From NCBI GenBank assembly GCA_031213475.1, contig JARUPZ010000014.1:62001-126000 (forward strand): a DNA stretch of 64,000 bases. Direction: 5' to 3'. The stretch is from Nereocystis luetkeana (taxonomy: Eukaryota > Sar > Phaeophyceae > Laminariales > Laminariaceae). Below the pieces are notes generated by a model, which saw nothing but the letters and a program-made list of their open reading frames with translations, did no database searches and was not told the origin of the DNA. Both the position numbers and the translations under genes were made by a program. Shown one piece after another: positions 11,674 through 58,651 of the stretch; the stretch's first letter is position 1; every line of letters starts with the position of its first letter.

Positions 11674-11876
11674 AACCAGTCAGCGAACAGCAACAAACAT
11701 CGATAGGTTTGGACGTATTTGACATGACAGATGATGGTTCATGGTAGATAAAGTAAAAGGCCGGTATCGTCGGTAGGGGTAGCGTGTGTGTACGTGTTGT
11801 GCGTTAGTAGGGAAAGTTTTTATTCTCGGTCTGCAGTCTGCAGGGGCGACAGGCAAGAAAAGTCTAGAGGCACAGG

Positions 11877-12193: not shown

Positions 12194-12201
12194 GGCACAG
12201 G

Positions 12202-15719: not shown

Positions 15720-16203
15720 ATGGCGTTTGATCGCGCGGTGATGATAGTGATTGGCTTGGCCATCTGCTTTATGTCCGGAGCGGAATCAATGCCGTGTCCA
15801 TCGGGCACGGTTGCCGTCAACATCACTTCCACGGCCGACGTCCGCAATCTCACTGACGTGTTAGCTTGCACGGGGGGAGGATCGTTTGACATCACGCTGT
15901 ATTCCAGCGTCATCATCGCCCAGAGGATCGAGGTGGCCAATATGAAGAGCGTGTCTGTCACTGGGGCCGGTTTTCCTAGCATCCGTGGCGCGCCGGCCGA
16001 CGATGACGGCGCGGCTGGTGCGATCGGCAATGATGGATCTGGTCATGGCATATTTCATGTCGCTAACGGCTCCACCCTCCGCCTGAACAACTTGGTGCTA
16101 GAGGGTGGGAATGCAGAAGATGGCGGCGCTGTGAACCTGGTGGCTTCCAGCTCCCTGTTTGTACTTGATTGCACCTTTACCAACAACAACGCTTCGAACG
16201 GAG
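15720..16203 (+). CDS. Exon 1: signal peptide and N-cap of the beta-helix
   Basis: The ATG at 15720 gives MAFDRAVMIVIGLAICFMSG, a clear signal peptide with likely cleavage after AES. An in-frame GTG 18 bases upstream was rejected because it only lengthens the signal peptide's N-region. The mature part shows a typical beta-helix N-terminal region (VSVTGAGFPSIRG, STLRLNNLVLEGG) and the first FTNNNAS coil. The exon ends GGAG before GTGAGC, splitting a Gly codon in phase 1. Confidence 0.85.
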
Positions 16204-19200
16204 GTGAGCCCACATGTTTGCGATACGACTTGCACAGAGGTGGAGACCACCATTTGGTCAAGCACTTTAAGCCGCCAGGCCGGACGCCCCAACATGACTC
16301 GAGTCAGAGCTGCGCCGTGGCGACTGGACACAGTATATTGATTTCCCATATTGTACTACTTGTACGAATACCGGATCAATTAATTTGTGAACGACCAGAT
16401 AACGAGACACCCTTGTGGAACGGTACCCATCCGATGATCGCCAGTACCGCTTGCGATATTCACACGTGCCACGGTCTCCTCGTCATATATATTGGCACAC
16501 AGTTAGTGATTTTAAGTCAACCTCACCCAAGTAGCAGCGCCATCGAAATTATCAATGCCCCCCACACCCAGAAGAAGCACTATCATGTTGTCCAGTTGAC
16601 TGCTGTTCGATTTTGACAGGGTGGCCCGGTTTCGGTCATTACCTGGTATGTGTTCCTTATGTTTGGTGCCTTTAACGTGTTGGCGTAAAGTAGTCTCAAC
16701 GCACTTGATTGTTCTACAAGGCCTTTGTCGTGTCTTAACGTCGGTTGCTTATAGTGATACAAGCAAGTATTTATGTCGTGGGTCCTGTTGCCGATGCGTG
16801 CGGCCACGTTAAACTCGCAGACGATCCCCCAATATGCCTGCAACCAGGTGCCATATCCGCCACCACGTCGGGAATCTACGTCGCCGGCAACACATCGTTT
16901 GATGGCAACTCAGCCCAAGTCGGAGGTCAGATGTGCTCATGCAGATTCCATGCGTCGCTCAGTGATTCAGTATCTGATGAACGGTAGAAAATGTCTTTCA
17001 AGACGCATGGGTGCGTCCATTTTCGGTTCGTTGCCACCGCATGTGCGCACATGATCGAGCCACAAGAGGAGGATTATTAAAGTGTGCATTGGGGAACTCG
17101 AGCAACCACGGCCTTTTGAGGGATTTGCTTTCCACGCTGGTGGTCAATCGACAGTCCCCAAAACCATCTTTATAGAGAGAAAATATGTAAAACCTCTGTA
17201 ATAATCCGTAGTTTGCTGACAACAAGAATACCTCAAATATGGTGTAAAACAGTCCATATGACCCGCTAAAGGGCACACACCGTTTGATGGAGAGTTGCCA
17301 GAGGTTGGCTTGTCACTAGCCCTCTACGTGTTCCGGCTCAAAATAATTATCCGTTATCGTGGGAACACACGGTACTGTCGAACGACTCACGAGTTGACTC
17401 CCATTCAGTGATGTCTGTAGTTGTCTAGTACAGAACGAAAACTGGATACATGTCATTTGTGAGCTCGTATCGGTCTGGAATTCTACGTCAATCCGCGCGC
17501 GTATTCCCTTGCATCGGGGACTTTTTTTATCATATGGTAGTGACCACATCAGCCTTCGGAACCTTCGAAATGACTGGTCCGAGTCTTGTCTACGGTATCC
17601 TCTCTTGCTTGTGTGATGATGTGTAGAGGGTTAGGGTTAGTGTGTAGTCCAGGTGGCAGAGGCGTACCTATTCCGTGGGCCCCATGGAATGGCCCGATAA
17701 TCCGTCCGTCCAACTTTCCGGACCCTCAGGTGGAATACATCTGCACGGTAACTCCTCTCTACAAATGGAAGGCAACACTTACTTTATCGAGAACCATGTC
17801 GATGGGAACGGAGGTAGGAGGCGTCTTGAAATATTTATACCCTAAATATTAAGGCAGGAGCAGTACCTCCTCCGTTCTTTGGCTGTAGCACGATCGAGTA
17901 CGGTGGGTGTCGACGGTGGCAGTAACACCGACATCAGCATAAACTAACGCTGCTTCCCACTTGTTCCAGGCGACCATGTACTTACCTGTCTTCATGCAAC
18001 ATGTGCAAATCAGTTTACGGGGATGGGCATTAATAGCGCGCTCGTCACAGATTATTTGGATTCGGGTAGATGAAAACTGGAGTTGGAAATAAATATCGAT
18101 GTTTCCCTTTCAAGATGTTTTCCGATTATTTACGCCAAGCGAGCGCTACGTCAGACCACTATCGATACCTCGATGATTTCGTCGTGGGTCATCTGTACTA
18201 CTAGTAGGACTCTCCCAACCACGTATTTTGACATCAACGCCTACCAGATTCGATGGGTGGGGTAATCGTCTTGAAGTAGAACGTTTTCTGCCTGTTTCTG
18301 TTCTAGTGGCGTCCATAATAATACCTTACGAGTTCTATTGGAGGCGGTGATAACAAGGACGTTCTCAGGTTCGTAACTGTCTTTTCCATAGCACCCTCAG
18401 CAGCAAGGTTCGTCGGGAGAGAAGCCAGCGCGTACGCCAACGTCGGTGTTTGTTTCTGCAACAAACAATGCCTGAGCCCCGTCAGCAACAGTTAACTCTC
18501 GTATTCACTGCCCTGACTTTATTATTCCAGTTTCTTGTTTGTTCTGGTCGACGAGACGTTCGCGGATCGTCACCATCTTGCTCCATCGAGTAGGTTGCAC
18601 ACGTCAACCCCAAAACATTACGATACCCACCCACAGGTGCTATACATCTATATGGTAACTCCTCAATGCAAATCGACGGCAGCACATCATTTATGAACAA
18701 CTCAGCAGCGGGTGACGGAGGTAAGAACAATATCAGAAACTGACTTGGTACCCTCCAGGTTGATCGGACCTCTCATGTGTCTCACAGGTCACCAAAGCAA
18801 ATGTGTCTCCCTTCGGTGGGTTTGGTGTGGCGAAGTACCGAAAGCCGCGGTACCGATGTCGCTCCTTAACAACAACTGGTATATTGCGACAAACACTCTA
18901 TATAGTAGTAGACTATGTATCGCTATTGGCAGGTGCCCCTTGGCAACTGCTACACCCCTTGAAGGTCGTATCCGGCATTAAAAGGCTGCGGCTCGACGGT
19001 GTGGATAGCACTTGCCGTTTGGTAAATAATGGTCGTTGAAAAATATCAGTAGTGATATATTTCGTTCTGAATTATTGAAGCTGATAAAATTGCCCCGTAC
19101 CCTTCACGTATCAAGCAGCCGATACCATGAGTACCGGTCAAACCTTGAATACAAAGATGGGTGCCTTTTGACTATTGACTATTCACGCTAGAAGGGCCAA

Positions 19201-22200
19201 TACGACGCATGTTTTGGGGTCTGTAGTTTTGTCTGAAGGCGACCTAGTATCACCAGACGCACAGGCGCTGGAGAAGCGCAGGAGTTGCGTTCGTTTTTTT
19301 CCGTAGTAGGCCGAAAGCACCGACAATTACAATAATCTGCCTTGGGTACGTGTATGAAGGTAAACCTGAACAGCGATGGTGAACCCTGTCTCGTCAAAAC
19401 ACTCGCCAAGGAAGGGAGGTTGGAGGCCAAACGAGAAGCACCTTCGAAACGCTTGCTTTGTCTTCACGCTGCGTAAGCTCGATAGCTTATACATTTTCAG
19501 GCAACATTTCGTAGGTGCCCTGTCGCACGTCAAAACATCGTTCGTAATGCCAGCGCCCATGGCAGAAACAACGACAACTACTATCCCGCGTCCATGGACT
19601 TGAAACAATCGAGTACTGTATGTATTCGGATACTACGGGTCGGCAGTTTGAAACTGGTGCCGCGCATTCGCATTGTTAACGAATTAATACCCTCGTTAAT
19701 ACCCTCGTTTCACACACAGAACCCGTGTAAACGCAAAACCCGTGTCAACACGAGTTTGTCACGATTCTGTGAATCGTCTGCAGCGCGTAGGCGGGCAGTA
19801 TCATATAACGTTCGGAACAGTTGCGGTCATGTGTAAAACACCGGACGACGTGAACTTGGCTTCGTAGAAGAGCGCGGACTGTAACCGTTGCTTTCGTTTA
19901 TATGCTACAGTACCACTCGCAACAACCGGTTTCTATCTTCAGGTGCCCTGTATGGTTCTACTAGTTGCTCAATCAACTTCAACGGTGACAGCCTTTTTAA
20001 AGACAACCTTGCCCGCGCCAACGGAGGTGAGAACCATTTGGGTGATACGTGTTGTCAGGTACCAGGTGCTGCGTTTTCCGTGTTTCTCGTCGCTACGTAC
20101 CACGCAAAATCGCTTGTGCATTGCGTGCATTGCAGTTCAGCCATGGTCAATGAGAACGTTGCCATACTAGCCCCGTCTACACAATTCGGGGTTATGCCTT
20201 AAACCATAATCCGTTTCCCTATGTCTAATTTATAAAAAACCTGGACTACAGCAGCAGAATTACTCGAAAATACTTCGTACGATGAGCAGTACCTGAACCA
20301 TCAGCTTGAGGAAAGGGATGTATTCATTCTTCTAACGGGTGGTAACGTCAATACGTACAATAGACCTGCGCGTGATTGCCCACATTACATCCCGTGTAAC
20401 AAGGAATTTGCCACAAAGAGACGTTGCGGGAGGCTGGGCTTTGAAGAGGACGAAACATAGCATGTGTGGGCGGGAAGGGAACTGTACGAGTAAACGCTGT
20501 GAAATACCATATATATGTTGAGTTAGGTTTGTGTATGATTGCGAATACAGCGCACAAAACATATTCCGGCACCCCATACGCCAACGACGCCCCCCCGGGT
20601 AAACAAGGTTGGCACCCTACCGGCCATTCAGGGGTTCGCCGTTGTATCGCTCGACTGATTGGGTTGGGTGTAACCCGCCCCTGCGGGCTGTTTATGATCT
20701 GCTCGGCAGTCACTCGTTGTGTTCCATGTCGTGGCAATATGTGGCTACTCGAGATCGTTCTCGAGGCGGCGCCGTTGTGTACGATGTATTGCCGTGAACT
20801 CGCCTCCGACTGTTAATGTGATGTTCACGTTACCTACCCGCAGGTGCTATACAAATTTCGACGAATGTTTATTTGAAAATCGAAGGAAGCACATCCTTTG
20901 TGAACAACATTGCACAACTTGACGGAGGTAAGGGGCGTCCCGAGCTACTGCTGTTGAGGAGTAAAGCACGAAGTGCGGTTCGTAGTATCTCTCGACTGAT
21001 ACCATTGTGCTGTTGCGGGTTCGACTGTTGCCAAACCTGCCGGTCACCGGGGCTCTGACATTTGTCAGATAATAATTAAAAGGCACGAGTCCAAGCAAAC
21101 GTTTTGACGATGTCGAAGCGTCTGCATATGCGAGGGTGCTATGTAGGCGATTGTGCAGGCATAAAAAAACTAGATGGCTCAGTTACACTGCAGGGGTGGC
21201 ATTTTTTGTTGTGAGCAGATACCAAAACAATATGTTTTGTACGGTTCGCTTGCGCGTGTGAAACGGCCCACAATCTACACAGGCATCAGGACGCTGTGAA
21301 CAGATCTTGCGTATCTGGTGACTCCACACGGCGAAGACTGGTATCGTTTTCAAAAATGAACGGAGAACGGTTTAATCTGTAGACAGCACACTCTATACCT
21401 CTATCAGAAACTGCACAACTCTACGCTCATAAACCATATTGTTCTAGCCGTGTAAAGTTGGAACATCCAAGCTACGTAAACGATACGTCCGGCTTTACCA
21501 GATAGGCATCTTTGTTTGAGTTATGCCCCAAGCACTCTAACATAGGTAACCCTGCCAGCTATTACAAACATACATGTGTCTCGGCATGTTTACATGGGCT
21601 AGAAAAACTTGGGTGAGAACACTTACAACTGCTACTGCCCATCTGCAGGTGCCATTCGTGCGTATGTCGATGCGGCCGTCATCATCGGCGGCGAAGCCTA
21701 TTTTGTCGATAACATAGCGTGGGGACACGGAGGTAAGAATCCCATTGAAAATGGCGGCCTGTATGCTGGGTTTTGGTATCACTTTGTTTGGGCCAACTAG
21801 ACAGAATACAAATAACTTCGATGGTTTTCTGTCACGCGTCCGAACACCACCTAACGCGACGGCACCCGCGCCACGGGCTGAACTACCGAACACATCATGT
21901 CCATTACAAAGAGAAGCCATCGTCGCTACTATGGGGGTATTTGTACTTTGGGCATCAGATTCTATGGGTTGAAAATCAGTTCCTTTGGGTGGGAATAGTC
22001 CTTTCATTCCGAGAGGATTTTGATAGTTCAGTTTGACTGAACGTCTCTAGTGCTACGTTCCGATGCTGAATACAGTGATGTGAGTTGACAATGTTGTCAG
22101 TATTTCCCCGTCAACGCCCTACAATACCTTGGTCAGTGTGCCATGCTAATGTCTCTTCTGTGGGCACGCCTCGCGAGTGACACGTTATACGGCTCTCGCC

Positions 22201-25200
22201 TTCATTGTTGTTTACTGTAGAGTAATTAATACATAATAGGTCCATTGCGGGGAAGCTGGTTTCGGAATAATTAATAGCGTACAGACCGTCGTCGTGCTAC
22301 CCCGCACTGAAATATCCATTGCCTATCGCCAGGTGCCCTGTCCGCTTTCAAGGGAGCCTCCTTCGACTTCGACGGTGACAGCATTTTCGAAAGTAACTTT
22401 GCCAACTCTGGCGGAGGTGCGACACGGCTTGATATCCAACGTTTACGCCTGTTTCTTTTCAATTGGCCTTTTCATAATGTATCACGATAGGCAAATGAAG
22501 AGTTGATAATGAGAACGACGTTTCCGAAGCTCATTGCCCACAAACAAATGTGCCCGAAGTTTTTATCGGAGTCAGTCTGCGGTTGGGTGACGAACTATAG
22601 ATCGTAAGTAGTACCATGCAAATATGCACCGTCTTGCACTTTCCACTACAAAATCGGTGTTAGGCGGTGTCTAGGGTAACTCCATGGCTGAGGGGAGTTG
22701 CTGAATGACTCTATTGTGGCCATGCCTTGGCCTATTGACACACACACCCCAACTTCAGTGTCAATTCTACTTAGTTATATGTACCGCACCAGAATTGAAG
22801 GTCTTGGAAACATTATATTCAATGTCCGATCCGAAACATGTAAACTTACAGCATCAACACAATGACGGTCATATATATGCCAAACCTCTTCCGGTTCAGG
22901 TGTGAACCCTTGTAGAGCATAGCGTACCTGCAAGTCATGTCCAATAGTGAAGTGTTGCATTGGCCACCGTTCTCGTGTTCCGTCAGTGTACCAAATACCC
23001 TATTCATTATGTTTCCGACCTGCAGGTGCTATAGACTTGTATGACACCTGCGCTTTCCATGTCAACGGCAGCCTGACTCTGGTCGACAACAATGCCGGCA
23101 CCTTCGGAGGTAAGACGCGGTTCGGAATAGGAGATGTTGCAGCCGTATTGTTGGAACGCTAGAATACCACAAACAAACGTCAACAAAGCGCGTATACCTC
23201 TCGCTGGTTGGTTTCTGGCCTAACGAGCGTTAGAATACAGACAAAATCAGCGACGATCGCGGCGTCGACGTGAAACAGCGATATCAAAGTTCGGATGAAA
23301 TTCGAGTAACCATGTAAAGGGTTAGGGTTACGGGATACTGCGATGTCGTGTCCAAGAAGGCGTCCGGCATCCGCAGTATTCATGACGACAAATGCTCCCT
23401 TCATTTAGGCGTACTAGCAGTGTGGCCACGGTTTCGTCCGTGGTAATAATATGTATACATGTGTTGTGCATTGTATTATATGCAAGGCGTGTGGTATGAC
23501 GCTTTTGATATAAGGAGTGATGTTGGCAGACATCGCAGGATGGTAGTGTGCTGTGATGAAGTACGGTATGGAATGAAAATCGTGGGATCTACGCTCCCTA
23601 GGGTCTCCCCAAGAGCGGGCCAAGTTGCCGTCCGGCATGTGAGAGTATCCAAAGCTCAATCCAATTCTTGAAAATGGGGGCATTTTCTACCTGGGGGTGG
23701 AAGCTATTGACGTCCACGTGTTCCGGAGAAAGGAGGAAGAAAGTATAGTGCTGTGCCGCACGCCGCCCAACACCTTTGAGACCCGTATTCAGCCGACGAA
23801 AGAAGCGGGGACAGCATCAATGCTTGGGTATTCGGCCAACCCCAAATCTTCTGGAAACACTGACCTTAGATTCCCGGTGTTGTTTCGTGCCGCAGCAAGC
23901 TGAGACCGAAACTGAACCTTCCAATACTGACAATCGGTAAACACTGCTCTCTACAAACAACGATTTCATAATTTTATAAAAACAACTACATAATGACTCA
24001 AAATATCATATATATTTTATAGATGAATAAAATCTATGACTTCAAGAAAGAAGACAGCACCAACGCTGGGTTTCCTGCCTCTCTGCTTATATTCCGTGGA
24101 TACTGACCACACGTTCTGGAAAAGGCAGGTATATTGCTGACGTAACATTGCGGCCTAGGGCGTTTCTTCTATAATTTTTTGCCAGTGAGGCCTCCCGGTG
24201 CGACCAACCGGAGGCCCTCACCCAGAGATACTTGCCGGGCAATCAACGCGGCACCGCGTCGCAGAGAGTAGATACCCCGGTAAATAGAACACTAACAAAA
24301 CAGATATCGCTGTCGACGGTACACCTCGCTACCAACGATGGGCGAGGGGGGTGGTCTGTTGTTTCCTAGCCTCTCTTTACTTTGTCGTGCTGTTGTAGAG
24401 CTGCGATATCGCTCACCGAGGGATAATCAATCACTCTCCCCAAGGCCATACAACAATTGAGGCTTTCCCGAAAAGAGATCCACCCTGCTGGCGTACCCTC
24501 TTTGCTGTTGCTGATTATTGTTGCAACATCGCGCCGTAGGTTCGTACCAGTCTGGCTCTAGATAGAAGGTAGTTTCACTTGTAGCATACGGGTATAATTG
24601 AGTCCTACCTGGCATGTTTTATGCGTCGGGGGTTGGATTCCATGCATGAGAACGTTTGGCCCTCTTTTTCCCGTTTTTTATGTCGTGGAACACGGAAAAG
24701 TACTTTTTCCGCCAGTAATACCTCCCAAGGCATACTACGAGTTCATGGCCGTTAAAGGTGGTAGGCACATTTTTGAGAGGCCAGGAGGCTACTAAAAAAC
24801 GTAACAAAGCTACGATATAACAAACTCATTATTCATGTTGTAAAGCGACTTTTAAAATAACCAGATTTCCTTCCTCGGAAAAAACGAAAAATTATTCCGA
24901 GCATCTGGGGGGGGGATGATACCGATCCACCCCCGTGTTTTTCCATCCCCTCGCTTCACATATATATATCCTATTGAAGCATATGGAAGCATATTGAAAC
25001 GACTTTAGGTGTTTTTGATGCGCAAGTCATGCACGGTCATTCACAGTATCAAACTACCTTATATGTAGAGACTTCCTAAGCTACCTTGTATTTAGAGACA
25101 GACTGGTGCCTAACCCTATATAAATTGCGATCAATGAGGCCTCTCTAATGTGGCATGAGATCACACCCGTATTTGTTGTCCCTGAACTTGTCTTGATGTC

Positions 25201-27257: not shown

Positions 27258-27297
<40 letters not shown>

Positions 27298-30200
27298 TAT
27301 GTTTGCTGCCATGAGCTGGTGTTCATATATATGTTGCAATTTTGTTTACCGAAGCTGACCATTGTATGCCTTGTCACGAATCGAACCAATGGCTGTTCAA
27401 ACCCTGATCCGAGCTATGTGTTATTAGCCCGTCGACACTCCACGCCATACGGGTGATAAGCCAGACAAATTCCGGTAGTTTTATACCAGGTATTTATTTG
27501 CGTAACTCATGCCACAAAACAAAAAAACACGGACCAAGGAGGCCAAGAACACCCGGAAAATCCTATTTTCCCACACGCAGGTGCATTGAAGGCGGATATG
27601 GATGTGTCCATCAGCGTTGACGGCAACGCCTCCTTTGTCAATAACTTCGCCATCAAAGCTGGAGGTGAGCATCTCCGCGGAGTATGCGTTGTTTACAATT
27701 CGCTGGCTGTTATCACACAGGGCATCGAGTACCAGGTATACAGACTTGTCGTCACCGTTGTTCTGTATTACTCTGACGCTGGTGTGTAGTGCCGACGCTT
27801 GAGGCACAGACCATAAATGAACTTTTATGGTGGCATTTGTAATATTTACACGAGATTTCGAACATTCCGCGTCACATTGTTTAAGATGCTGTCTGATACT
27901 GGCAGGTTTGGTATAATATGTGTCACGTGCAGTTTTACTTGCTATTTTAGTGGAGTGACTTCACATTTGTTTCCCGATGAGGTGTAGGTTCTAGGAGTTT
28001 TGCTCAGCGAAATATATCCAGAACCAGGGCCCGAGAGGTAACTACCTCTCGTTCATAAAACCCCTTTCAACACGCAAGAGTTCTCGCGATGCCATTGTGA
28101 TTTCCCGTACTGAGTTTATGCACTGCGTGCGTTCAGTGTATCGCGCCGGATTCGGTTCACTTAGTTTCAGGGAAGCGTACAGGCCGTCGTCGGGCAAAAT
28201 TCAAGTCGATGATTTCGCGTAATAATAGGCGTTCTACGATAGAGGTATCACATTTGGGACATAAACCTTTCTGAACCACAACGAACGCCGTCCTTACCGG
28301 AGGGCAGTTCAAGGAAGGATGAGCATGTAACTCGTGCCCTACATTGTTGGACACAATGAGTACGTACGCATGCGAGGTGCGTGTAGCATCAGTCGTATTC
28401 ATATGGGTGTCCTCGTCGCGTTCAGCATTATACATTGGGGGGACATAGGAGCCTCAGACAAATTAGGTTGGGCCTCTATCGTAGAACGCCTCGTAACGCA
28501 TACCTGCTCTGATTCTGTTTTGCAGGTGCCGTGTACGCTTCTGTGCTTACCAGTATCAACGTTGTCGGCAACAGCGTTTTCGACAACAACGTGGCCGACG
28601 GCTTCGGAGGTGCGGAACGTGCAAAGACAGACGCGTTAATTCTGCAGGCCGTCGCTCACGATACCAATAATCTGTTATGGCATTCAGTGCTAACATCATG
28701 ATATCGAGGGCATTGTCACAAGCGTTCGAGCTTTTCATGTTTTATCAGAGTCAGGATCCCGCTCGAAAAGCATCATAACATAGTGTGACGCACAATACAA
28801 GAACTATGTACCTCAGTGTTGGTTCTCTGCTAAACAATCCTGGATACTCCTCGCAACACAGGTGAACCCCTTTAGGGCAGCACTTCCATTCTGGGGACAA
28901 ACCAGTTGGAATTATAGTCAAGTTTAGGTATTTGTACAGTAACAATAGCCCTAAGTTAACGATGCACCTATGGCAAGAAGATATCCTGGCTAGACTTGGT
29001 GACCGCATCATTGTCTGAGGTATGCGAGTGCTAATGCATCCATATTCGAATCTAGATGTAACGGGCAAATAGCCGAGCTAACATTCCGCATTTTGTGGTG
29101 CAATGCGTGTTGGGTACCGGAATGGTTGAAATATGGGATACCAAAAACTGTCTGGGGAGTTGGTCATGAATTATGCGGACCACTGCTTTATGGCACCACG
29201 AGGAATGAATACGCGCTTCAGGTCGTCTCGCTACCCCCCCCTTTAAGCACTCACTTAGGTTTCGTGTTCCGTTTTGGTTTCTCCCCGACTGGATACTTGT
29301 TACTTTGGTTCACATCTGCACCGTCTGCTTCATGGCTGCACGGGCATCGGCATACTCCTCCTCCTGTCATCGAGACACCACCTTGCATAAATGTATTCAA
29401 TGAAGCTATCGTATAAACCTCAGAATCTCCCCATTGCAATCCCATTCTTTAATTTACGTCACGAGTGCGGTCTTGTGACGGTATGTGACATTGCTCTGAA
29501 CTAAGACGCTCATGCTCTTCTCTCTGTCAGCACTGCAACTGCAGATTAATCGCCTTTACGCTAGTATGGAAGACTAGAAATCTCTCGTTCAGAGCCCGGT
29601 CTGAAACGTGTCTATATGTATGTGAACATCCACAGTGCACGTCATACGTCAGACCTGTTTCGGTACCGCTGGTGATGCCTTAATTGTGAGGTATCAGTAT
29701 CTGCGCAGCCCTGGTAGAACACTAGAACACCTGCCGCCATTTTCCTGTTGCGTCGCGTTCGCTGATGATCCTCGTGACTGGCATTACCTACCCGCAGGTG
29801 CTGTGTATATGTATGGAGGCTCCTCTTTGCACACGATTGGCAGCACCTCATTATTGCATAACCGTGCCGAACAAAGTGGAGGTGAGCAGAGCTTGCGTAA
29901 CAGTTGCCTAACAGTTGCCGAGATCCTAATGCATGTTTAGCCGCGTGTCAACCGCCCCCCCCTCTGGTCCACGTACCCTCTCTTCCAAATATCACGTGTT
30001 CCTGTTTTTCCATGACGAGGTGATGTACGATAGAAGTTCATTCTGAACTATTTGAGCTCCATACTACTAGTAAGCCACCCGAGCACTGACAGCAGCAAAA
30101 ACTAAATTGCCTCCCGATGAGTAATCCCATGACCTAAGTATACCAAAACGTCATATTTCGAAATACGATTGGCATTCAGACGAGAGTGGGTTAAGGAACT

Positions 30201-33200
30201 TTGTCACTCAGAAGTTTTTTTAGCGGAAATGTGCTACCTCTATCATAGGACGCGTCTGATCGGTAATGGGGTTGAAAAAAAGCAACGTATTTTCTAGACA
30301 TCTTCCTCTCACCCATCGCGGATTATCCACGGTGCAATTGAAGCAACTTGTTCGCCTCGTGATAGCGACAGGGCCTCGATAAACAGCAATCAGCTAAACA
30401 CGCATCTAGAACCGTGCTAAATAGGAAGGCTTGCTTCGTGCTTAAAGTAGGCCACGTGCATTCGTACGTAGGAATGAATACGTCTTAAAGATATGGTATG
30501 TATATTTCTAAGATGTATATTGTCAGGACGTGAAACACGAGGATATCTCCGCGACCTATTATTTGAAAACCCCACGATTATAACCAGGAGAAAGCTTCAC
30601 CACGCGGGCGGCAACACCGTCACCACAGCCAACTCTAGATAGCTCGTGATGAACGCAAGCTCCACCAGCTAACGCCAGTGCATCCGGTTTTATTCACACC
30701 GGGTTGGTTTAAACCAAGTTTCTACAGCTCCTTCAATCAACGATGGCAAACGCGGATAAACAGACACTAAACAGGCGGGCAGAAGGACTAATGATTCTAC
30801 CCTGTACGCACTACGCCACCGGACAAGCGACCGCGGATAACTCAATGCGACTTGCGACGAAACAAGTGTCGCGCAGCACACGTTTGGTCGCTCCTGTAGC
30901 TGCCTGGGCTGTGGAAGTCGATCATTTACAGTTATCTCGGAGTCATTTTCATAGCCGTGCCACATATATATAGTACGCAACACGCAAATCCAGATATATT
31001 CAACTTCAAGACCAAAAACCCGTACGCACCCCGCACCGAGGCCCCCTATTAATACTAGCCCGAAGGAAACAAGCGTACTCAATGTACAAATGAAGCAAGG
31101 CTGCCAGGTAAATCGCGGTCGGTCACGCGTGTTCGACGAGAAATACCGAAACGAATGCCGCCAGATTAAAAACTCACAGAAGCAAGGCCCCGCTAACTAC
31201 AGCAACCCTAACCCCCGCAGTCAACTCGAGACGGCTTGTGGCGAAAGGCATTCCGCGCAATAGCCCACGCACACTCGCTTATATTATGGAAACGCACTCT
31301 TTTTCGTAAATAGATCACATACAAAACGGCTGTCGCCACTCACGGTACAAGCACACGACACACGGTACACCACAGAGAGAGGCGCGAAAGCAAAAGACAG
31401 ACTAACACAATATTACTTGTAGGCCGTACGCACGCCGCGATGAAGTGCTTGTTGGCCCTCAAGGAACGAACGGACGGACCCGTGCTCCGTCTGAGGGGTG
31501 CCTCAGTTCTGGTAGAAAGGTGCATGTTGTACTGGTAGAAAGGTGCATGCTGCTGTAGAGCTGCAGTACCTCATAATACAAGAACTCGGTACGTGTTCGA
31601 GGCACATACGACGGAAACAAATCAAGATCCCGCCGCAATTAGAAGGCGCAGTCACCAGAACCCCACGAGCACAGCGACCGCGGCCATATTGAAACGATCC
31701 GCGACGAACCAGGGCCAAGGCGTTTTCACAAGATTTCCTGTTCCTATACACGCGGGATCTGTGAAAGCCGGTCACGTACAACTCTCTCAGGCAAAGATGC
31801 CAAAACGCTACAGAAAGTACACATCAGACATGTGACCAAACAAGCCGGCAGACTAACTAAACAATGGAAATCTGTACGCATGCGGTATCGAAGGAGCTTG
31901 TTGAACAAAGGAAATAAACAACTTCGCTCTTCGTGCTCGGTCGCGAGTAATTTCGGCTTTGGAATTCGCGCTTATTCTCGAATAATTATTTCCGATGGTC
32001 ACGGGCTACTGGTACCGTACTTGTAAGGTAGACGGCAAACCCCTTGACAACAAAGTATGCAAATATACGTCGATGATGCCACCGGCCCGACCATTTTTTT
32101 TTATCAATACCGTCGTGGTTTCAGACGCTGGGAAGATCGAAATTATTTCCAGTATTCAGCGCCTTCCCCGTTTTTTCAGGGCAGCACATTATGCGAATCG
32201 CCGATGATGCCGACGTCCGCTGTACCGACTAGGAGGACACCATCCAGCGGCCATGTGTTTTGGTATATGTTTTCCTTTTGGAGTGGTGGCCTTGAATATT
32301 CGGCGTGAAACGGTTGGAGCCAGTTTCTAGAGTTGAGAGCAATTCGGAGTTATGCCTCGTGCACGAGAAGCACCTGTCCTCACATACCTAGAAGCTCCGC
32401 ACGCAATGCAATTCAATGTCCTGAGTTGAACGTTGTATGCCAACGCAAGACAAGCAGCACGCTATTCACTCCCGCCACGTATACACAGCGGAATGCAGAT
32501 ACTGGCGCGCAGTAGTCTGTGAATGAGATCGGGAAACATTACAGCGCGAGATAGTCAAGCACGATGCCCGACGCCAGCGCTGAGAGTATAAATGCTTCCC
32601 GTCCAAAGCCCAACCGGACTCATGACGGCGTGCGTGCTTGAATACTCCCCACCATTGTATTGTTCGTCGTCTATCCGCAGGTTCTATGCATATTATTGTG
32701 AATAGCTCCATCAACTTTGACGGCGACAATCTAATGTACGGCAACTCGGCCGGGGGACAAGGAGGTAAGGTAGTGGCAGTGGACCACGGTGCGTGTTTCA
32801 CATTGCAAAGTCCTACGGTGCGTTGCGGTACGGATTCTTGCAGCATTTGACGAACATACGTTACGGTTTGGTGCGGATTTTGGTTTCGGGCGTTCATACT
32901 GTGCGGTGAGGTTTGGAGTCGTGTTGCATATACCGGTCAAGACCGCAACGTAGCAACGTACTTGATTGTGAATACCCCAAGTCCTTCTCACGGTTGTATA
33001 GGTTTGGAGCAGTCGAACTGTGCGGCTCAGTGCGGCGCGGATTGTTGCTTGAGATTTCTACCAATCATACGGTGGGGTGGGAGGACCAACCGCGCCACGA
33101 AAATCCGCCTAGTGTGTTTCCTGTTTAGGGCAACTGCCAGCGCTGAACATCACAAACCCCATGACGTTGATGACGATGATATCGCCGATGATCGATCGCA

Positions 33201-48200: not shown

Positions 48201-51200
48201 AGTTCTGGTCTCGGCAAGTCGTATGCAGATGTGGCGAAGAGTCCCGGAAAATGTTTCACACAGGGTGATCATGATTGGCTTGACGAACCGCAGGTGCTAT
48301 CCTGGCGGAGGACGCCGCGATCTACGTCACCGGTAACGCGACATTTGCCTATAATGAAGCCTATCGAGACGGAGGTGAGATACGACCCAAACCACTATCT
48401 GTGAGGTGATCTAGATTACATGCGGTGAGGCATGTATGTGGCAGGATCCTCGTGGCTTTCTCTGCGGGGGAGATGGGGAGTCAGTCGGTCAGGCGGCCGG
48501 GACGCTGTTGATGGTGTAAATATATTATTCACCTTAACCTGCCCTTCCTGAGTCCGCGAAAGGCTAGTTAGTGCCAAAGTCTTCAAAACAATGCTCTACA
48601 CTGTAAACAACGAGCAAGAGTTTCCAGATATGTCCCGTCAAATGCTCAATCCATGAGCCCAGGCCCACGTCACAGGCAATATATTCCCGTAACCACCTGT
48701 GAAAGCATACATGTACGCATAATTGTGTGGTAGACTTGGCATGTGCACGGCGGACGCATGGCGAAACGAACATGGTTTTACCGCAAATGCAGTTGTTAAA
48801 ACGTCTGAGTGATCGACACATTGGTACTGCTGCCGGACATCACTGGCAACTGGCATGCTTTCAGCGGGTAGGTCAACGAGTGTGATCGATACTTGTTTTT
48901 GCGATCTCAGCGGCATCTCGGTCGCCCATCATTTCTAAGGCCGTGGAGGTTTCTGCCTCGGACGTAGGTCGGCAGGACGAAACACGTGTGAAGAAATGAA
49001 GCGGAGCGTGGTGTACACGTACTCGTTCGCAGTGTGTCACCCTTTATGAAGACCTATTTGACACATGATTGGTCGATGTGTGAGACGTAGCGATGAGCTA
49101 TATTTGGACTGATTTAAACATAATTGACCACTGAAAGGCCGCAACAAAAGTAATCAGAATCCAATACTGTGATCACGGGCTAAGCAAATTCCAGTTCGTT
49201 TCGAAAGACAACGTTAGTCATGGTGTCAGATATTGGCAAACCCTTTTCGTTCCCTTGTGCGCTATTTCGGGGGGCCATAATAAATGGGACTAAATTTTGT
49301 TCGTAAAAGTAGGTAAATGTATACCAGGTAGGTTTTTGTGTCTGCCATAGGTCCTATTCAATACGGTCCCCCGTGATAGTGGCGCACCACGATATTGACC
49401 ACGTTGTACGCGGTCACTTGCCGCTGACCAACCCAATTACGGCCCGACAAATCGTTCGGTACGTTGTACGGGGCATGCTTCCGGAAAAACGAGAGGTTCC
49501 TTTCTTGCTGACGCCAAATCGATAATTGGGTATTATAGTGTGTGTTTCACATTGTACCCTTCTTTCGATCCGTCGACATTTAGCACATCCAGTGTCCGCA
49601 CCGCTGCTTCGTCCTAGATCGATCCATAATATGTACAAATCGGAGGGGCTGCTACGCTGCTACACGAAAGATCCAAGGTGTCGAGCGAGAAACTTGCAGC
49701 GATAAGGGTAAAGGAAAGTGCGTCTCCTTTGTATTTTGGCGGTAATTACGGAGTACTGCTGTCGCGCTCCCCCGAGAGGGCGTGAAACAGGCAACACGAT
49801 CCAAACAAACAAGCTAACAAATACAACGCAAAGCACCACAAGCAGCAGGCTCGTCTCCAGGAACAAAACACAAATCACGCTAAAAAACAATCCACACACG
49901 GCATTTTCAGTTGAGGCATATATAGTGTCCACCCACTAGCCAACGTGGCGCTGTCCTACTATCCCATCTCCTTAGCGATTTCCTGCACCACGGTTTTCCT
50001 ACCGCCTTTATTACCCCGAACGCCGCATATGGCCGTTGTGTAGAGCAATATGTTATTTTTCGCCATGTATGTCCGCATGCCTTAATAATTATGGCTATGT
50101 AGCGTCCGGCGTGTTCGAGGGCTTATCGGTATTGTCTGCTAACCTTGTTTGCTACAGAGACCCGTCGGACAGTCTAGACTCCGGTTACCAAGGCACTATG
50201 TTCCGTGCACCGCTCGGTGTCTCGAAACGCTTTAAGGTAGTCAAATAAATGTAGTAGTCGCCTGTGATAGGTCTTCGGCGATCCGCGAGTTTTCGGCTAT
50301 TCCATGCCGCCCATCGTCGACACCATCACCCGGCTGGAATACCGCCGCTCGTTTGCCTCGCTACGGTGTGTGTGAAGAAAAAAAGCCTCAGTTTACTGAG
50401 TGTTGATGGATGATTTGATGCGTTGTCCCAGAATCAGTGCCTGTCGATAATGCTGATGCGAGACTTTTGTCTTTGTTTAGTTGATCAAACGTTGTGGCTT
50501 CTGAAGCTATTTATTCTACGAGCTGGAGTGGGTCCGCCCCAATTCACCGACCAATATAGGATGGGACAGTCACCGGAACACCGCAATTAGTGTGCGGCCA
50601 TGCAATGAATGGGGAAAAAGACGAAAGATGGCCGATTTAGTAGACGAAGTCGGTACATTACGTGATCCAAAACCAGGGAAGTTGAACCGATATTCGTGCG
50701 TATATTTCGTTCGACGTTTTGTTGGATGTGAAGGCTGCAATTACTTGAGCTTGTCGTAGCAGGGTGGAAGAAGTATCATCGCGAAATCGGACTCCCGCCA
50801 TGGGTCTGTCTGTCAGCCTTAGCCGAGGAAAAATATGTTCGGAAACCGATGGGACGTATGTATGCGCGTGATAAGGGTACACAGAAAAAAAGTACGACGT
50901 TTTTACGGAAGAGTATTGAATCGCCATAATTACAGAATGAAAGATATATATATATTATATTATATCCTGCATGAGGACGTATGTCAGGCGTAGTACGCGC
51001 GATGAAGTGGTATACCCAACTTACTTGCACGGGTGAGTAGTTTCGACCTAATCCTCTGCCTCTTTCACAGATAGATGTTGTTTGTAATATTTCAAACTGT
51101 ATATATATATTGTATACATCAAGTTTGATGCATAGTTCGTATGTGTTCGCTACATCCAACCTTTGTGCGGGTGACGGGCCCGCTCTTGTTGCGTTCTAAC

Positions 51201-54200: not shown

Positions 54201-57200
54201 GTGCGTGGATCTCGAATGTATTAAATTGCATTAAATTGCATTAAATTGCATGCAGTTAGTTGCCTGCAGTTGCATGCCACCTTGAACAGGGTTGCAAGCT
54301 AGCTGCAAGCGTGAAAGCAATTCCATGCAATAATAGTGCATGCACTTGCGCGCTCTTGCATGCAAACGTTCAAGCAGCATGCAAGTTGCGTGCAAGTTGC
54401 ATGGACGTGTGAAACATCATGCCACTTGCGTGCAATTTGCACGAACTTCATGCAACCGTATGCAATCCCCTGAAAACTTGCATGCCACTGACATAATACT
54501 AGTATGGAAGACCCGTCTCGCGTCAGACGAGTACTGTTACAACATCGGGATTTCCCACTTGAACTTCGCTCGGCGCTCTCGTCTGCTCTGGTGAGGTTCA
54601 GGTGTCGCCACGTCCGCCCAGCAATTGGGAATAGGGCTTTTCACCGACCGGATATCCTTCATTGAGAATAGAGCCTTTGCCTACGGAGGAGCTATATCAA
54701 TCGGGGACCCGTTCAAGCTCGACATCAGCGACGTGTCGTTTGCATTGAATACAGCCGAGTCTGGAGGAGCTGTTAGTCTGACGTCAATAACCTCGGCAAC
54801 AGCGAAATTTGGGTACTGTCATTTTGATACCAACAAGGGTATACGGGGGGGCGCCTTGTATTTGAGCGGCACGGGGCAGAAGTTCCTTCAGGATTCCTCC
54901 TTTCGTCTCAACGTTGCTGGTGAGTTTTTGTGTAGAACGCCTACATTTTGTCTTCCTCGGCGAGAAAGCGAGACACAACAAAGAGTAGTGGTTTACAACT
55001 TTCTTTTCAGGAACAATATTCACGGCCGACGATCTAGATTGGCTCGCTTGGAGTGGGTTTTGATTACGTGTCCACCAAGTACTACAGTAGCTACCATACG
55101 TTTGCCCATATTTTTCTGGAGATGGGCAGTGTGACGTCAACCATCGCAGTTTAAGTACCTCGAAGGCCAGCAACATATAGCGTTAGGGTTAAAAACACAA
55201 AAGGATCTGATCTGGAGGAACCTGTAGAATCACAAAAGAAACTGACCTGAAGGAACCCGGACAACGCTTGTTCAGCCGAGCAGATATGCTGTGCTGAATG
55301 TGCACACAAGCAGTGTAGAACCACCACATTGAGCACCAGCAACACTATTTCTACTACTACTGTGTGCGGAATGCCTACCGGTCACGCAGAAGAAACGGGC
55401 GGAGCACTTTTCAACTCCGGCATATTGGAAATAAAAAATACAGTTTTCGCAGAAAACACAGCCGCTGGCGGACTGGCAATACAAACTGTGCAGCCTTCTG
55501 TGGTGCTATTGAACGTGACATTCGACGCCAACGTACTGAGCTGTCCCTCTCAAACGTACAACTACACCCAACATGTGAGTACATACTGCTATTTACACCG
55601 CCGGCGTCCGTTCCGCAACTATGTTTGCCGCCGGAATATTTAGCCTATGTGTCGTACGTACAATATATGTGTCTGCTATGACGGGCTGTACTGTGATGGC
55701 AACGTGTTGCTCTATGTGTACCCTTGGATGCGTGGAAACCCTGCGGTATCCAACGAAAGCTTGATACGCAAAGAATGCATCGAATTACTGGCATTATTCA
55801 TCTCGTTTGGGGTTTCCTGCAAGCGCAGTCATCCGAGCTGTCAAATGCACCGCTGACCGGTAGACTCCAGGTTCCAATGAGTTCTCATTTTTCATTCTAT
55901 ACCATGAATAGGCTTGGCAAATGGGCATATTCCAGCCCATTTCCGCCACTCTAGTCAGTGTTTATGTGCCTTTTTCACCGAATTAGGCTGCGTAATTTAG
56001 GGTTCGGGCTTCCCCTCCGGTTGCCCTCCACAGGCGTCTCCCGAACGCTGCCGCCTCGATCTGGCATGCGCCCAATGTCTTGAGGAGTGTACAAGTGACC
56101 TGAACAACGTGATAGTCAACAGAGACACGCTTCCCACCTGCGAGCCGATACCGGTGGGCGTGTGGCCCTCGCCGAACTCCACCACTCTCCAAACGTTTGA
56201 CATCCAGGAGGGTTACTATCGTGTTTCCGCCGAGAGCCCGGTCGTTCTTGAGTGCTACGAAACGGATGCCTGTGTTGGGGGTGTCGATCCTAGAAACTAC
56301 TGCGCCATCGGCTACTCTGGTCCATGTAAGTCCACGCAGGCAAATAGCTGGAAGCAGCGAGTCCAAAAAGGATGCTGCGATTTTTGCTAACGGGAAGTCG
56401 CTCGGAACGATCCATGTGGGCATGGAAGCCCGCCTGCGAGGAGGGGTCTGGTGTCGCCCCTGGTACCTAAAGATGTTATCGTAGTGGAACACGGCCACGG
56501 TGTGAGTGTCGGCGGAGGCGTGCTTCTTACACGAGTTACCTTGCTACCACATGTCTTCAATCGGCAACCTAGCCTCTATATAACTACCTGGCGTTCTCGC
56601 TCCCGTATATCGCCCGTTTTGCAGACTGTGCCGTCTGCAACGAGGGCTACGCGCCAGGGTCAGGTAGACGCTGCCATCCGTGCTCGGAAGAGAACGCGGG
56701 ATTTGCATTGGGGGTTTCAACCACCGTGCTGCTTCTAGTGGTGTTCGTTGTAGTGTCGGTCGTTTCATACCTTCTGCAAATGGTGGGAGATGGGCCCCAC
56801 GATGCGCTGGACCAACCACGACGATGGTGGCGGGGGAAACGGTGCTTCGTCCGCCGCCCGCTGGTGGAATCGCTCCCTCTGTCCACCATTAGGATCGTCG
56901 TCGTCGTGCTGCAGATTGTGATCCAGGTGAGTAATATCGAGGATAGCCTCAAGCTGACAAGACTCCGGTATATAGCCAAACATTTCCAACGCATTCGGTG
57001 TAGATATATTGGTGTTTTGGTCTGTACACATTCGGCGTGAAAACATACGATCGAAAACATGACGTATATATGCTGCTCTAGTACGAAGTAGCGTACGTAG
57101 TAGTCAATGGTGTTCCATGTCTATTAATACCTCAGTCCGCCAAAACCAGAACAAGTGTCCGACGTAAACAGTCAAGACGATACTTTAAGGTGGGGGCTCT

Positions 57201-58651
57201 TCAAACACAGAAACGCGCGCACACTCTTAGAAGGCTCAATGCTCGCTCAGCTCGAAGCCTGGCTCCGACATATTATCTCGCATATGAACATCATCTTTAA
57301 TTAATTAACAAATGTACCCCAAATCGATCCCCGACTAACCCGACCCTGCCAACGCCATAAACTATTTTTCAAACGTGGAGATCGCTGCTCAAGCGTACGG
57401 CGAATCTGTTTTATAGTATACAGATAGCTCGATAGATACCCGGTACAATTTGACGGTGTCATTGTGTGATACAATCCGACTGCGGGCAAAGCCGTGTTCA
57501 AGTTTTCGTCACACGCTACAGCATCCGCGCCCCCCCTCCTGGGCAACCCGCGAATCAACCGCCGATGTCCCCTGACTCATCTACCCCCTCGTTGGTTTTC
57601 CCTCGCGTTTTTTATTTCCCGTCTGCAGTTCTCTGATATCGCTGGGGCGGTGTACCCAGACGAGTATGAGAATTTTCTTTCGGCAATGGCGCTTGTCAAT
57701 TTCGACATCGGATTTATCTTGTCAAGTTCCTGCTTAATGGCAACGGACTTCTATGACAGGCTTGTTCTTGTAACTGTGGCACCGATGGTTGTACTGCTCG
57801 TTTGTGCTGGCACGTTTGTTATAGCCAAGAACAGGAACTCCAACTCGGCGGGGCCTATTGTGAAGCACAAGCACGTGTCGGTAGTCCTGTTTATGGCGTT
57901 TTTCGTGTATTCGTCCGTCTCCTTCACAATATTCCAGACCTTCGTCTGTGATTCTCTGGACGATGGTATGGCTTACCTTCGTGCGGATTACAGCATTACC
58001 TGTGGCACGGAAAGGCACACAGCCTACCTAGTATACGCTAGTGTGATGGTGTGCGTCTACCCAGTCGGTATTCCTGCCTTCTTCGCGTTCTGGTTGGTGC
58101 GCCATCGTCGGCAATTGAAAAAAACTGACAGGGAAACAGTGTCAGACCTCAAGTCATATCGTTGTCTCTGGGTCGCATACAAACCATCGCGTTACTACTA
58201 CGAGGTTGTGGAGTGCGGGCGCCGGATCATTCTCACCGGAGCAGCGGTCTTCTTTCTGCCGGGTAGTGGTGAACAGATAGCTTTCGTGCTGTTTTTCGCG
58301 GTGGTTTTCATGTTTGTTTCCGAAACCCTTTCCCCCTTTTATTCGAAGACCGACATGTGGCTATACCGTTGGGGTAACGGCATTGTTCTCGCCAGCATGT
58401 ACGTTGCCCTCCTTATCAAAGTTGACCTCGCAAGCGAGGACGGCCGGAGTTCATCGACGATAGCAGTTATGCTTGTCGCGGCACATGCGTTCATGATGCT
58501 TACGGTAGCTGTGCAGATGTTCCTAATAATGAGACGTGTATGTGCATCGAAGACAGAGCGAAGTACGATCCCTAACCCCTTGTCGCCCGTGACAGGATGG
58601 AGTAGCCCCGGCCTTGAGGCATCGATGAACATGCAGACTGTTGAGCTATGA
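15720..58651 (+). CDS. Secreted/membrane beta-helix (Pmp-like repeat) protein with ephrin-receptor-like Cys module and multi-pass C-terminus, 24 exons
   Basis: Proposed exons: 15720-16203, 16848-16925, 17730-17813, 18637-18720, 19943-20026, 20844-20927, 21649-21732, 22333-22416, 23026-23109, 27581-27664, 28526-28609, 29798-29881, 32681-32764, 35562-35645, 38410-38490, 39943-40023, 48294-48374, 53043-53129, 54602-54919, 55011-55052, 55276-55574, 56034-56325, 56625-56926, 57629-58651. All use GT-AG and join into one open frame of 1,391 codons plus TGA. Domain order: signal peptide (1-23), beta-helix coils (about 100-740) with Pmp-type GGA[I/L/V] and FxxN motifs, Cys-rich region (about 754-970) ending in a GCC2/GCC3 or ephrin-receptor-like C-x2-C pattern, then nine to ten hydrophobic segments (980 to about 1365). 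Known relatives are large surface proteins of stramenopiles and alveolates. A role in adhesion or sensing is inferred. The exon 20/21 boundaries are the least certain. Confidence 0.85.
23110..27580. other. Intron 9 (4.5 kb)
   Basis: No exon matching the array pattern was found inside. It holds telomere-like tracts near 23318, 26777 and 27168, a GC-rich imperfect hairpin near 24186-24220 and a (TA)n run at 27263-27294. A 184-codon minus-strand frame at 26603-27157 has no recognisable motif. Confidence 0.6.
27263..27294. repeat. (TA)n microsatellite
   Basis: An uninterrupted TA run of about 16 units lies in intron 9. Confidence 0.95.
28228..28490. repeat. 18-bp perfect inverted repeat pair in intron 10
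   Basis: GGCGTTCTACGATAGAGG (28228-28245) and its exact complement (28473-28490) face each other across about 230 bp. The same sequence in degraded form ends the intron 12 and 13 repeats at about 30232 and 33611, so a small dispersed element is likely. No target duplication was identified. Confidence 0.6.
28863..28905. repeat. Decayed half copy of the 97-bp foldback element
   Basis: AACCCCTTTAG followed by a diverged middle and then TTCTGGGGACAAACCAGT resembles the left arm and loop edge at 9413-9454. The second arm is missing. Confidence 0.55.
30054..30264 (+). repeat. Intron repeat, copy in intron 12
   Basis: About 210 bp aligns with 33431-33642 in the same orientation. Shared runs include GAGCTCCATA, TCCCGATGA, AAGTATAC and AAAACGTCAT. 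The class is unknown. Introns 12, 13 and 14 have nearly equal lengths (2,799, 2,797 and 2,764 nt), but the repeat sits at different offsets, so the introns are not simple copies of one another. Confidence 0.65.
33431..33642 (+). repeat. Intron repeat, copy in intron 13
   Basis: This is the second copy of the repeat at 30054-30264. The two are diverged at roughly a quarter of positions by eye, with small indels. Confidence 0.65.
35598..36302 (-). other. 234-codon open frame antisense to exon 14 and intron 14
   Basis: This is the longest unexplained open frame of the window. It starts at an ATG at 36302 and runs to 35598, overlapping exon 14 (35562-35645) on the other strand. No domain, signal peptide or membrane segment is recognised. 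A frame of this length could arise by chance a little less than once in a window this size. It may be an intronic antisense gene, a transposon remnant or chance. The plus strand of 35734-35916 is also open. Confidence 0.2.
42873..42977. mobile_element. Mariner-like MITE, copy 1
   Basis: This 105-bp element is flanked by TA dinucleotides. Its inverted ends read TTACGGGGGGG-CATAGTGAATAGGACC and the complement of GGTCCTATTTAATATGGTTCCCCGTAA. It shares ends and length with 49265-49376. TA flanks and short TIRs fit the Tc1/mariner group, but no transposase is present. Confidence 0.75.
43380..44290 (-). mobile_element. Ty1/copia retrotransposon fossil (reverse transcriptase region)
   Basis: Remnants of a copia-type reverse transcriptase are read on the minus strand within intron 16. 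In order along the element there are short stretches typical of the family: the fingers region with VHHLDVEHTFI, the segment around NWSSKLTEALVDIGF, the DLGE region and a VSRFSK stretch before the RNase H part. Terminal repeats, gag and integrase were not found. The element carries many breaks and looks old. It lies antisense to the host gene. Confidence 0.7.
44357..44731. mobile_element. 375-bp inverted-repeat element
   Basis: The arms TCGGAAAAATGGGAACGAAG (44357 onward, 34 bp) and their near-exact complement (44698-44731) enclose about 300 bp without recognised coding sequence. A non-autonomous DNA transposon is likely. No clear target-site duplication was seen. It abuts the RT end of the copia fossil. 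Confidence 0.7.
49265..49376. mobile_element. Mariner-like MITE, copy 2
   Basis: This 112-bp relative of 42873-42977 has TA on both sides (49263-49264 and 49377-49378). Its ends are TTTCGGGGGGCCATAATAAA and, inverted, TCACGGGGGACCGTATTGAA. One TACCAGGTA motif lies inside (49322-49330). Confidence 0.75.
52196..52926. mobile_element. 731-bp inverted-repeat element in intron 17
   Basis: The left end ACGTGTACGAGCTGGGACAG and the complement of the right end (ACGTGTCCTACGAGCTGGGC) form terminal inverted repeats of about 25 bp with one small indel. The AT-rich interior has only short frames and a CAATATTTAATATTG palindrome (52848-52862). A non-autonomous DNA transposon is likely. Its superfamily is unresolved because no target duplication is obvious. 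Confidence 0.65.
53043..53129 (+). CDS. Exon 18: atypical transition coil
   Basis: This 87-nt phase-1 exon starts GA (not GT) after CACAG and ends CCAG before GTAAGA. The peptide (GAIKTTDASLTIEAG, then VQEAKLSGTSSIAPG) keeps the GAI start but lacks the FxxN motif and the final GG pair. It appears to mark the boundary between the one-coil exon array and the multi-coil exon 19. Confidence 0.75.
53530..54490. repeat. TGCA-rich low-complexity tracts in intron 18
   Basis: Two stretches (about 53545-53625 and 54215-54485) are packed with TGCA, TTGCATGCAA and GCAAGTTGC. They include three exact copies of TTAAATTGCA at 54221-54250. Between them, 53765-53930 holds a degenerate repeat of CCTAGAGTGTTTC. 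No protein is implied. Confidence 0.7.
54602..54919 (+). CDS. Exon 19: four beta-helix coils in one exon
   Basis: This 318-nt phase-1 exon encodes residues about 634-739. Four repeats are visible, with junctions FAYGGAIS, ESGGAVS and RGGALYL and FxxN-type motifs FIENRA, FALNTA and FDTNKG. Compared with exons 2-17 the introns between coils are absent, either lost here or never gained. Confidence 0.88.
55011..55052 (+). CDS. Exon 20: short linker exon (tentative)
   Basis: This exon runs from TTTTCAG at 55010 to a weak donor GTGGGT at 55053. It encodes GTIFTADDLDWLAW in phase 1-1. The donor was chosen because the frame closes a few codons later and because this choice matches the phase of the next acceptor at 55275. 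Confidence 0.5.
55276..55574 (+). CDS. Exon 21: Cys-rich start and last helix coils
   Basis: It encodes a CCAEC-x3-KQC cluster followed by ETGGALFNSGILEIKNTVF, a GGA-type coil, and VLLNVTFDAN. It ends in phase 0 at CAACAT before GTGAGT. The 5' boundary (TTCAG at 55275) is inferred from phase. Other AGs nearby would also be open. Confidence 0.65.
56034..56325 (+). CDS. Exon 22: Cys-rich juxtamembrane domain
   Basis: It starts in phase 0 after CCACAG and ends CCAT before GTAAGT (phase 1). It encodes a CRLDLACAQCLEEC motif, EGYYRVSAESPVVLECYET, then ACVGG and CAIGYSGP. This order is typical of the stramenopile membrane proteins annotated with ephrin-receptor-like or GCC2/GCC3 repeats. Confidence 0.85.
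56625..56926 (+). CDS. Exon 23: ephrin-receptor-like Cys motif and first membrane segments
   Basis: Joined to exon 22 it reads GPYCAVCNEGYAPGSGRRCH, then PC, the GCC2/GCC3-type pattern. A strong membrane helix follows (VLLLVVFVVVSVVSYLL, residues about 980-1001), then a basic loop and the start of a second helix (IRIVVVVLQIVIQ). It ends in phase 0 at ATCCAG before GTGAGT. Confidence 0.88.
57629..58651 (+). CDS. Exon 24: multi-pass membrane C-terminus
   Basis: It starts in phase 0 after GTCTGCAG and ends at the TGA 58649-58651 (340 residues). The conserved opening FSDIAGAVYPDEYENFL, then NFD and SSCL, is followed by about eight hydrophobic segments, among them LVTVAPMVVLLVCAGTFVIA, VVLFMAFFVYSSVSFTIF, ASVMVCVYPVGIPAFFAF, IAFVLFFAVVFMFV and AVMLVAAHAFMMLTVAVQMF. 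The cytoplasmic tail is short and Ser/Thr-rich. The fold may be receptor-like or channel-like, but no catalytic motif identifies a function. Confidence 0.9.
   Translation, partial: FSDIAGAVYPDEYENFLSAMALVNFDIGFILSSSCLMATDFYDRLVLVTVAPMVVLLVCAGTFVIAKNRNSNSAGPIVKHKHVSVVLFMAFFVYSSVSFTIFQTFVCDSLDDGMAYLRADYSITCGTERHTAYLVYASVMVCVYPVGIPAFFAFWLVRHRRQLKKTDRETVSDLKSYRCLWVAYKPSRYYYEVVECGRRIILTGAAVFFLPGSGEQIAFVLFFAVVFMFVSETLSPFYSKTDMWLYRWGNGIVLASMYVALLIKVDLASEDGRSSSTIAVMLVAAHAFMMLTVAVQMFLIMRRVCASKTERSTIPNPLSPVTGWSSPGLEASMNMQTVEL

Follow-up and report, generated by a model that had tools for sequence, protein, structure and literature searches.

A Nereocystis luetkeana gene in which sixteen phase-1 exons each encode one Pmp-type coil of a putative membrane-anchored beta-helix

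Insect Dscam genes contain arrays of mutually exclusive alternative exons, and chlamydial Pmp genes are intronless. Repeat-per-exon arrays are already published for LRR proteins of brown algae and Tetrahymena (PMC11378527, PMC6564038). In the brown-algal ROCO (LRR-ROC-COR) genes, each LRR occupies one exon, and alternative splicing is reported (PMC11378527). The LRR genes of Tetrahymena comprise nearly 50,000 exons of 90 bp, more than 96% of them with phase 2 introns between, an organization attributed to exon shuffling (PMC6564038). The chlamydial Pmps are built on a different repeat: each coil of their predicted beta-helix carries one FxxN/GGA pair, the motif side chains are predicted to lie inside the helix, and variable loops are predicted to exit one face, between FxxN and the next GGA (PMC11166332, PMC10715098). 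One of these papers places the predicted exit of the Omega-loops at the FxxN/turn face (PMC10715098).

We modelled one 22-exon gene on the plus strand of a window of 64,000 nucleotides from Nereocystis luetkeana, the window being the whole stretch of DNA analysed (Table 1). The gene extends from 15720 to 58651, with a coding sequence of 3933 nt and a product of 1310 residues, in which a hydrophobic N-terminus is followed by a predicted beta-helix ectodomain, a Cys-rich stalk (E19-E21) and hydrophobic segments (E21-E22). The splice sites of E18 to E22 are putative, having been picked by eye and checked for open frame and phase only. The exon structure of the coil array is directly supported. 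Exons E2 to E17 (16848-48374) each encode one Pmp-type coil of 26-28 residues and lie where an earlier note on this DNA had placed them; that note counted exons 1 to 19, and its coil exons are correct, while this model has 22 exons in all. Twelve of the sixteen are 84 nt long, three are 81 nt and one is 78 nt, and all sixteen are entered and left in phase 1, as had also been claimed.

The boundaries of these modules are equally plain. All 17 junctions from E1|E2 through E17|E18 read GGAG|GT, and the codon split there (G|GT) encodes the second of two consecutive Gly residues. The free joinability announced in the earlier note is real: each of the 289 ordered joins of E1-E17 to E2-E18 yields GGT. 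Four alignment columns are invariant in all sixteen coils, namely three Gly and the Asn of FxxN.

Table 1. Exons of the modelled gene, in coordinates of the window.
Exon	Coordinates	Strand	Description
E1	15720..16203	+	ATG, hydrophobic signal-peptide-like N-terminus, N-terminal cap, first coil; 3' end GGAG|GT, phase 1
E2	16848..16925	+	coil, 78 nt; donor GTCAG, weak-looking
E3	17730..17813	+	coil, 84 nt; donor GTAGG
E4	18637..18720	+	coil, 84 nt
E5	19943..20026	+	coil, 84 nt
E6	20844..20927	+	coil, 84 nt
E7	21649..21732	+	coil, 84 nt
E8	22333..22416	+	coil, 84 nt; donor GTGCG, weak-looking
E9	23026..23109	+	coil, 84 nt
E10	27581..27664	+	coil, 84 nt
E11	28526..28609	+	coil, 84 nt; donor GTGCG, weak-looking
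E12	29798..29881	+	coil, 84 nt
E13	32681..32764	+	coil, 84 nt
E14	35562..35645	+	coil, 84 nt
E15	38410..38490	+	coil, 81 nt
E16	39943..40023	+	coil, 81 nt; as aligned, one extra residue at start
E17	48294..48374	+	coil, 81 nt
E18	54602..54919	+	318 nt, several coils without introns, phase 1-1; NCBIfam POMP_repeat 2.8e-07; sites picked by eye
E19	55390..55574	+	final coils, then Cys-rich stalk begins; sites picked by eye
E20	56034..56325	+	Cys-rich stalk; sites picked by eye
E21	56625..56926	+	Cys-rich part ends, first hydrophobic segments; sites picked by eye
E22	57629..58651	+	remaining multi-pass membrane region, tail, stop; acceptor picked by eye

The 16 coil exons thus form a repeat-per-exon, single-phase array, in which repeat equals exon and length and phase are uniform. 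Like the ROCO genes, the locus equates the structural repeat with the exon, keeps one length and a single phase and leaves its exons freely joinable, whereas the ROCO genes combine 72-nt, phase 2 LRR exons with a GTPase, and here the exons are of 84 nt and phase 1, encode beta-helix coils and belong to a protein that is probably membrane-anchored (PMC11378527). The Tetrahymena genes likewise have exons of one length and one intron phase; in contrast, they have phase 2 LRR exons in a very large family, and the present array consists of old Pmp-coil exons in one gene (PMC6564038). With the chlamydial Pmps the product shares the motifs FxxN and GGA(I,L,V), which occur as one pair in each coil of the predicted beta-helix (PMC11166332, PMC10715098). 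Those proteins are bacterial and anchored by a beta-barrel, whereas here the gene is split, the membrane region is predicted to be multi-pass and the gap between FxxN and GGA in the exon-coded coils is of 4-5 residues. The resemblance to Dscam lies in the idea of isoform diversity drawn from exon arrays; here, however, dissimilar coils stand in single file and can all co-occur, and no cluster of similar exons is present. Among the open-literature matches listed (titles and abstract openings), no paper describes the Pmp coil as a eukaryotic exon module, and the Pmp beta-helix coil as an exon module of a membrane protein is likewise absent.

Database profiles place the repeat in the Pmp family, as the earlier note had proposed. 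The joined protein matched Pfam Chlam_PMP (PF02415) with an E-value of 3.6e-27 and 91.9 bits (cut-off 20.6), and E18 matched NCBIfam TIGR01376 with 30 bits (cut-off 15). Taken singly, only 2 of the 16 coils reached E<=1 with Pfam and 3 of the 16 with NCBIfam, mostly under the family cut-offs, because each intron cuts the FxxN-to-GGA motif within GGA and joining restores it. The best Chlam_PMP stretch, residues 231-248, spans the E4|E5 join (residue 244). The strong match of the spliced product, set against the weak single coils, supports the splice model. Arrays assembled in silico also matched Chlam_PMP, at 1e-15 with alternate coils removed and at 5.7e-29 in reversed order. Four Pfam families reached E<=1 in the 1310-residue product; neither the beta-barrel autotransporter nor the Pmp middle domain is one of them, and none of the LRR-ROC-COR domains appears among these matches.

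Both the sequence family and the literature suggest that the ectodomain adopts a parallel beta-helix fold. AlphaFold predictions made without relatives had mean pLDDT values of 33.3 for E18 alone and 44.0 for E22, and a PDB sequence search returned no credible match (the lowest E-values were 0.11, with the ectodomain, and 0.66, with E22). As the gap from FxxN to GGA is of 4-5 residues in the exon-coded coils, these have no long Omega-loops. The most variable positions are columns 20, 23, 25 and 27 in an alignment of 29 columns numbered from 0, with entropies of 3.1-3.4 bits, and they fall within FxxN and the gap; by analogy with the chlamydial proteins, the exposed turn after FxxN may be the variable face. 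The view that the product is a surface protein also seems sound: the hydrophobic N-terminus, the 14 sequons for N-glycosylation within residues 1-780, the Cys-rich stalk and about eight distinct hydrophobic segments past residue 890 (Kyte-Doolittle, window 19, overlapping rows merged) all point to a likely surface location.

The sixteen-exon coil pattern is not due to chance. Leave-one-out profile searches of the six frames of the window recovered all 16 coils, with held-out E-values of 2.7e-11 to 2.3e-3. No segment beyond the sixteen scored better than E 0.97 in these searches, and in 11 of the 16 runs the top outsider came from E18/E19, a region that itself bears coils. The exact exon pattern matched 9 of the 16 exons and nothing in 100 shuffles. 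A profile search of reading frames of at least 15 residues, which badly broken copies could escape, found no extra coil exon. Beyond the window, the exon pattern matched at least 103 stretches in viral contigs and at least 118 in prokaryote contigs, and none of the 221 loci among the matches listed contained a coil by profile at E<=1; we took these loci to be chance or unrelated matches, one sequence being repeated in at least 20 of them. For the E22 protein, three stretches of viral contigs matched by pattern, and tblastn showed none of the three to be a relative. The coil alignment offered no stretch conserved enough for a pattern search.

On balance, we lean towards a coil array of ancient duplicates, now stable and mostly constitutive, in a surface receptor or adhesin that tolerates some skipping. 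The single 22-exon gene would encode a protein that crosses the membrane several times and exposes a long parallel beta-helix of the Pmp type, about 20 coils in length. A single phase-1 module of about 84 nt, bounded by introns, would have given rise to the sixteen coil exons through ancient duplication, and this shared ancestry would explain why every boundary shows the same Gly|Gly split and why the exons join freely. The array would now be spliced mostly constitutively, which would give an ectodomain of fixed length serving as a surface receptor or adhesin, and some coil skipping may be tolerated since every join restores the frame, the Gly and the FxxN/GGA pair.

The age of the exons is apparent from their divergence, which is directly observed. 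Pairwise nucleotide identity averages 51.7% and does not exceed 69.0%, third positions are 45% identical, and the closest pairs are E3/E4 (69.0%), followed by E4/E6 and E5/E8 (both 66.7%). Adjacent coil exons do not resemble each other more closely than pairs drawn at random (p=0.47 from 5000 permutations). Duplication of a three-coil block was considered and rejected: a separation of 3 has the top identity but not significantly so (z 1.56, p 0.066). The introns are largely unrelated, the sequence common to them being limited to a 194-bp pair (introns 12/13), a 118-bp pair (introns 16/17) and matches of at most 44 nt with E-values of 6e-4 or worse. Thus, with divergent exons, dissimilar neighbours, unrelated introns and no spare coil exon, there is no sign of recent exon duplication or shuffling within this gene, and the suggestion in the earlier note that long introns favour exon duplication finds no recent trace here.

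The two intron pairs can be described further. The copies of the 194-bp pair (30076-30261 and 33444-33637) are 72.7% identical and lie at unequal distances from the exons; they represent either a dispersed repeat or a relic of duplication. The other pair (42870-42980 and 49262-49379, 74.6% identical) is MITE-like, with inverted ends, which in the first copy (42870-42980) read CTATTACGGGG ... CCCCGTAATAG.

The array might instead serve as a combinatorial ectodomain, in which regulated or stochastic exon skipping generates many receptor forms that differ in length and face, a reading that we consider possible and rather unlikely. The sequence permits coil skipping; alternative splicing itself is a possibility. 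The 289 in-frame joins, all restoring Gly, speak in its favour, but because a duplicated phase-1 module leaves frame-neutral joins anyway, they argue only weakly for a system of splicing. The shortened and reordered arrays keep their family match, and the four most variable columns fall on the face that corresponds to the predicted exit of the Omega-loops in chlamydial Pmps (PMC10715098). Moreover, ROCO variants with different sets of 72-nt, phase-2 LRR exons are reported (PMC11378527), and by analogy they argue for more variation than a stable array assumes. Against this, the exons seem too divergent and too evenly kept for interchangeable variants, and the splicing signals are largely ordinary. 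U1 pairing at 14 of the 17 coil donors (-9.3 to -10.1 kcal/mol) is inside the range of the four downstream donors (-5.8 to -14.1 kcal/mol), and k-mers of 7-9 in the intron flanks (250 nt) never rose above the shuffle maximum. Pairing is weak at the donors of E2, E8 and E11 (-5.4 to -5.8 kcal/mol), and judging from these signals the three exons could be skipped; the E20 donor, presumed constitutive, is just as weak (-5.8 kcal/mol). Constitutive splicing is as much a proposal as alternative splicing. That splicing selects the coils, and hence the outward row of turns, in a cell-surface parallel to the LRR/ROCO system of brown algae strikes us as doubtful; if true, coil selection would allow, by arithmetic, up to 2^16 = 65,536 in-frame forms from one gene with its DNA unchanged.

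Elements common to the introns were also sought over their whole lengths. TACCAGGTAT occurs in 5 of the 17 introns (maximum in 20 shuffles, 4) and the AT-rich CATATATAT in 7 of the 17 (shuffle maximum, 5), and both were discarded as too weak to rely on. Complementarity of at least 15 nt between introns amounted to five matches, all involving the telomere-like repeat found in introns 2 and 9; 10 shuffles gave 0-3.

The introns could also be younger than the coils, if an intronless coil array had gained them in parallel at Gly-Gly codons reading GGAG|GT, acting as proto-splice sites; we regard this as improbable. Such a history agrees with the uniform GGAG|GT at the 17 intron sites. Within E1, E18 and E19, by comparison, at least six more coils meet at Gly-Gly with no intron between them, and the six joins examined are GGCGGC, GGAGGA, GGAGGA, GGGGGC, GGCGGA and GGCGGA. 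The near absence of common sequence in the intron bodies is also in line with it. The intron flanks, however, resemble one another. Identity at acceptor positions -16 to -4 of the 16 coil exons is 0.421 versus 0.277 in row shuffles (0/5000), although this likeness may partly be the general acceptor signal of the genome, the comparison set numbering only five (E18-E22). An A is present at acceptor position -8 in 12 of the 16 coil exons versus one of the five other acceptors (E18-E22), the one being that of coil-bearing E18. The likeness fades outward, as the value for -40 to -21 was reached in 67 of 5000 shuffles and -60 to -41 shows none. On the donor side, identity at +6 to +12 is 0.297 versus 0.254 when shuffled (15/5000), and a T at +6 is found in none of the 17 coil introns versus all four downstream (E18-E21). 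The alike acceptor flanks with A at -8 and the non-T donor +6 fit copied flanks better, and such signals would favour an old duplication of an intron-bounded module, as in the reading we prefer, over parallel intron gain.

Finally, that the coil exons and the membrane part are two genes, or that the array is a decaying remnant, is hardly credible: introns 16 and 17 are long and contain repeats (8270 and 6227 nt), but phase 1 and GGAG|GT persist from E17 to E18, E18 opens in frame inside a coil, and all 16 coil frames are open and flanked by intact AG and GT. A toy simulation with 0.3 changes per site and no selection put the chance of all 16 remaining intact at about 10^-14.5.

Downstream of the gene, a 135-bp unit is repeated 19.8 times at 59126-61796 with 97% matches; one minus-strand frame has no stops (a 941-residue ORF, 59076-61901), the other five frames have 19-98 stops, and the region has no Pfam match at E<=0.1. 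Upstream, the minus strand at 4011-4781 encodes the RNase H part of a retroelement reverse transcriptase (PF17917, 1.5e-20). Long repeats occupy 5991-14392, pairing 5991-6655 with 13723-14392 (82%) and 7152-7743 with 10670-11272 (91%), and an inverted repeat links 8549-8871 to 11873-12194 (93%). Degenerate, internal CCCTAA telomere-like stretches occur at 11431-12018 and in introns 2 and 9. Rfam gave no match at gathering scores within the window.

Even if the array is constitutive, it is a clean case in which the exon border is the border of a structural turn, the intron falling within the GG|A turn, and it can help to decide whether exon modularity came before repeat expansion or after it. 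If coil skipping were common, the combinatorial repeat idea would carry over from LRR proteins to a beta-helix anchored in the membrane, and this would be one gene whose isoform choice is directly readable from cDNA.
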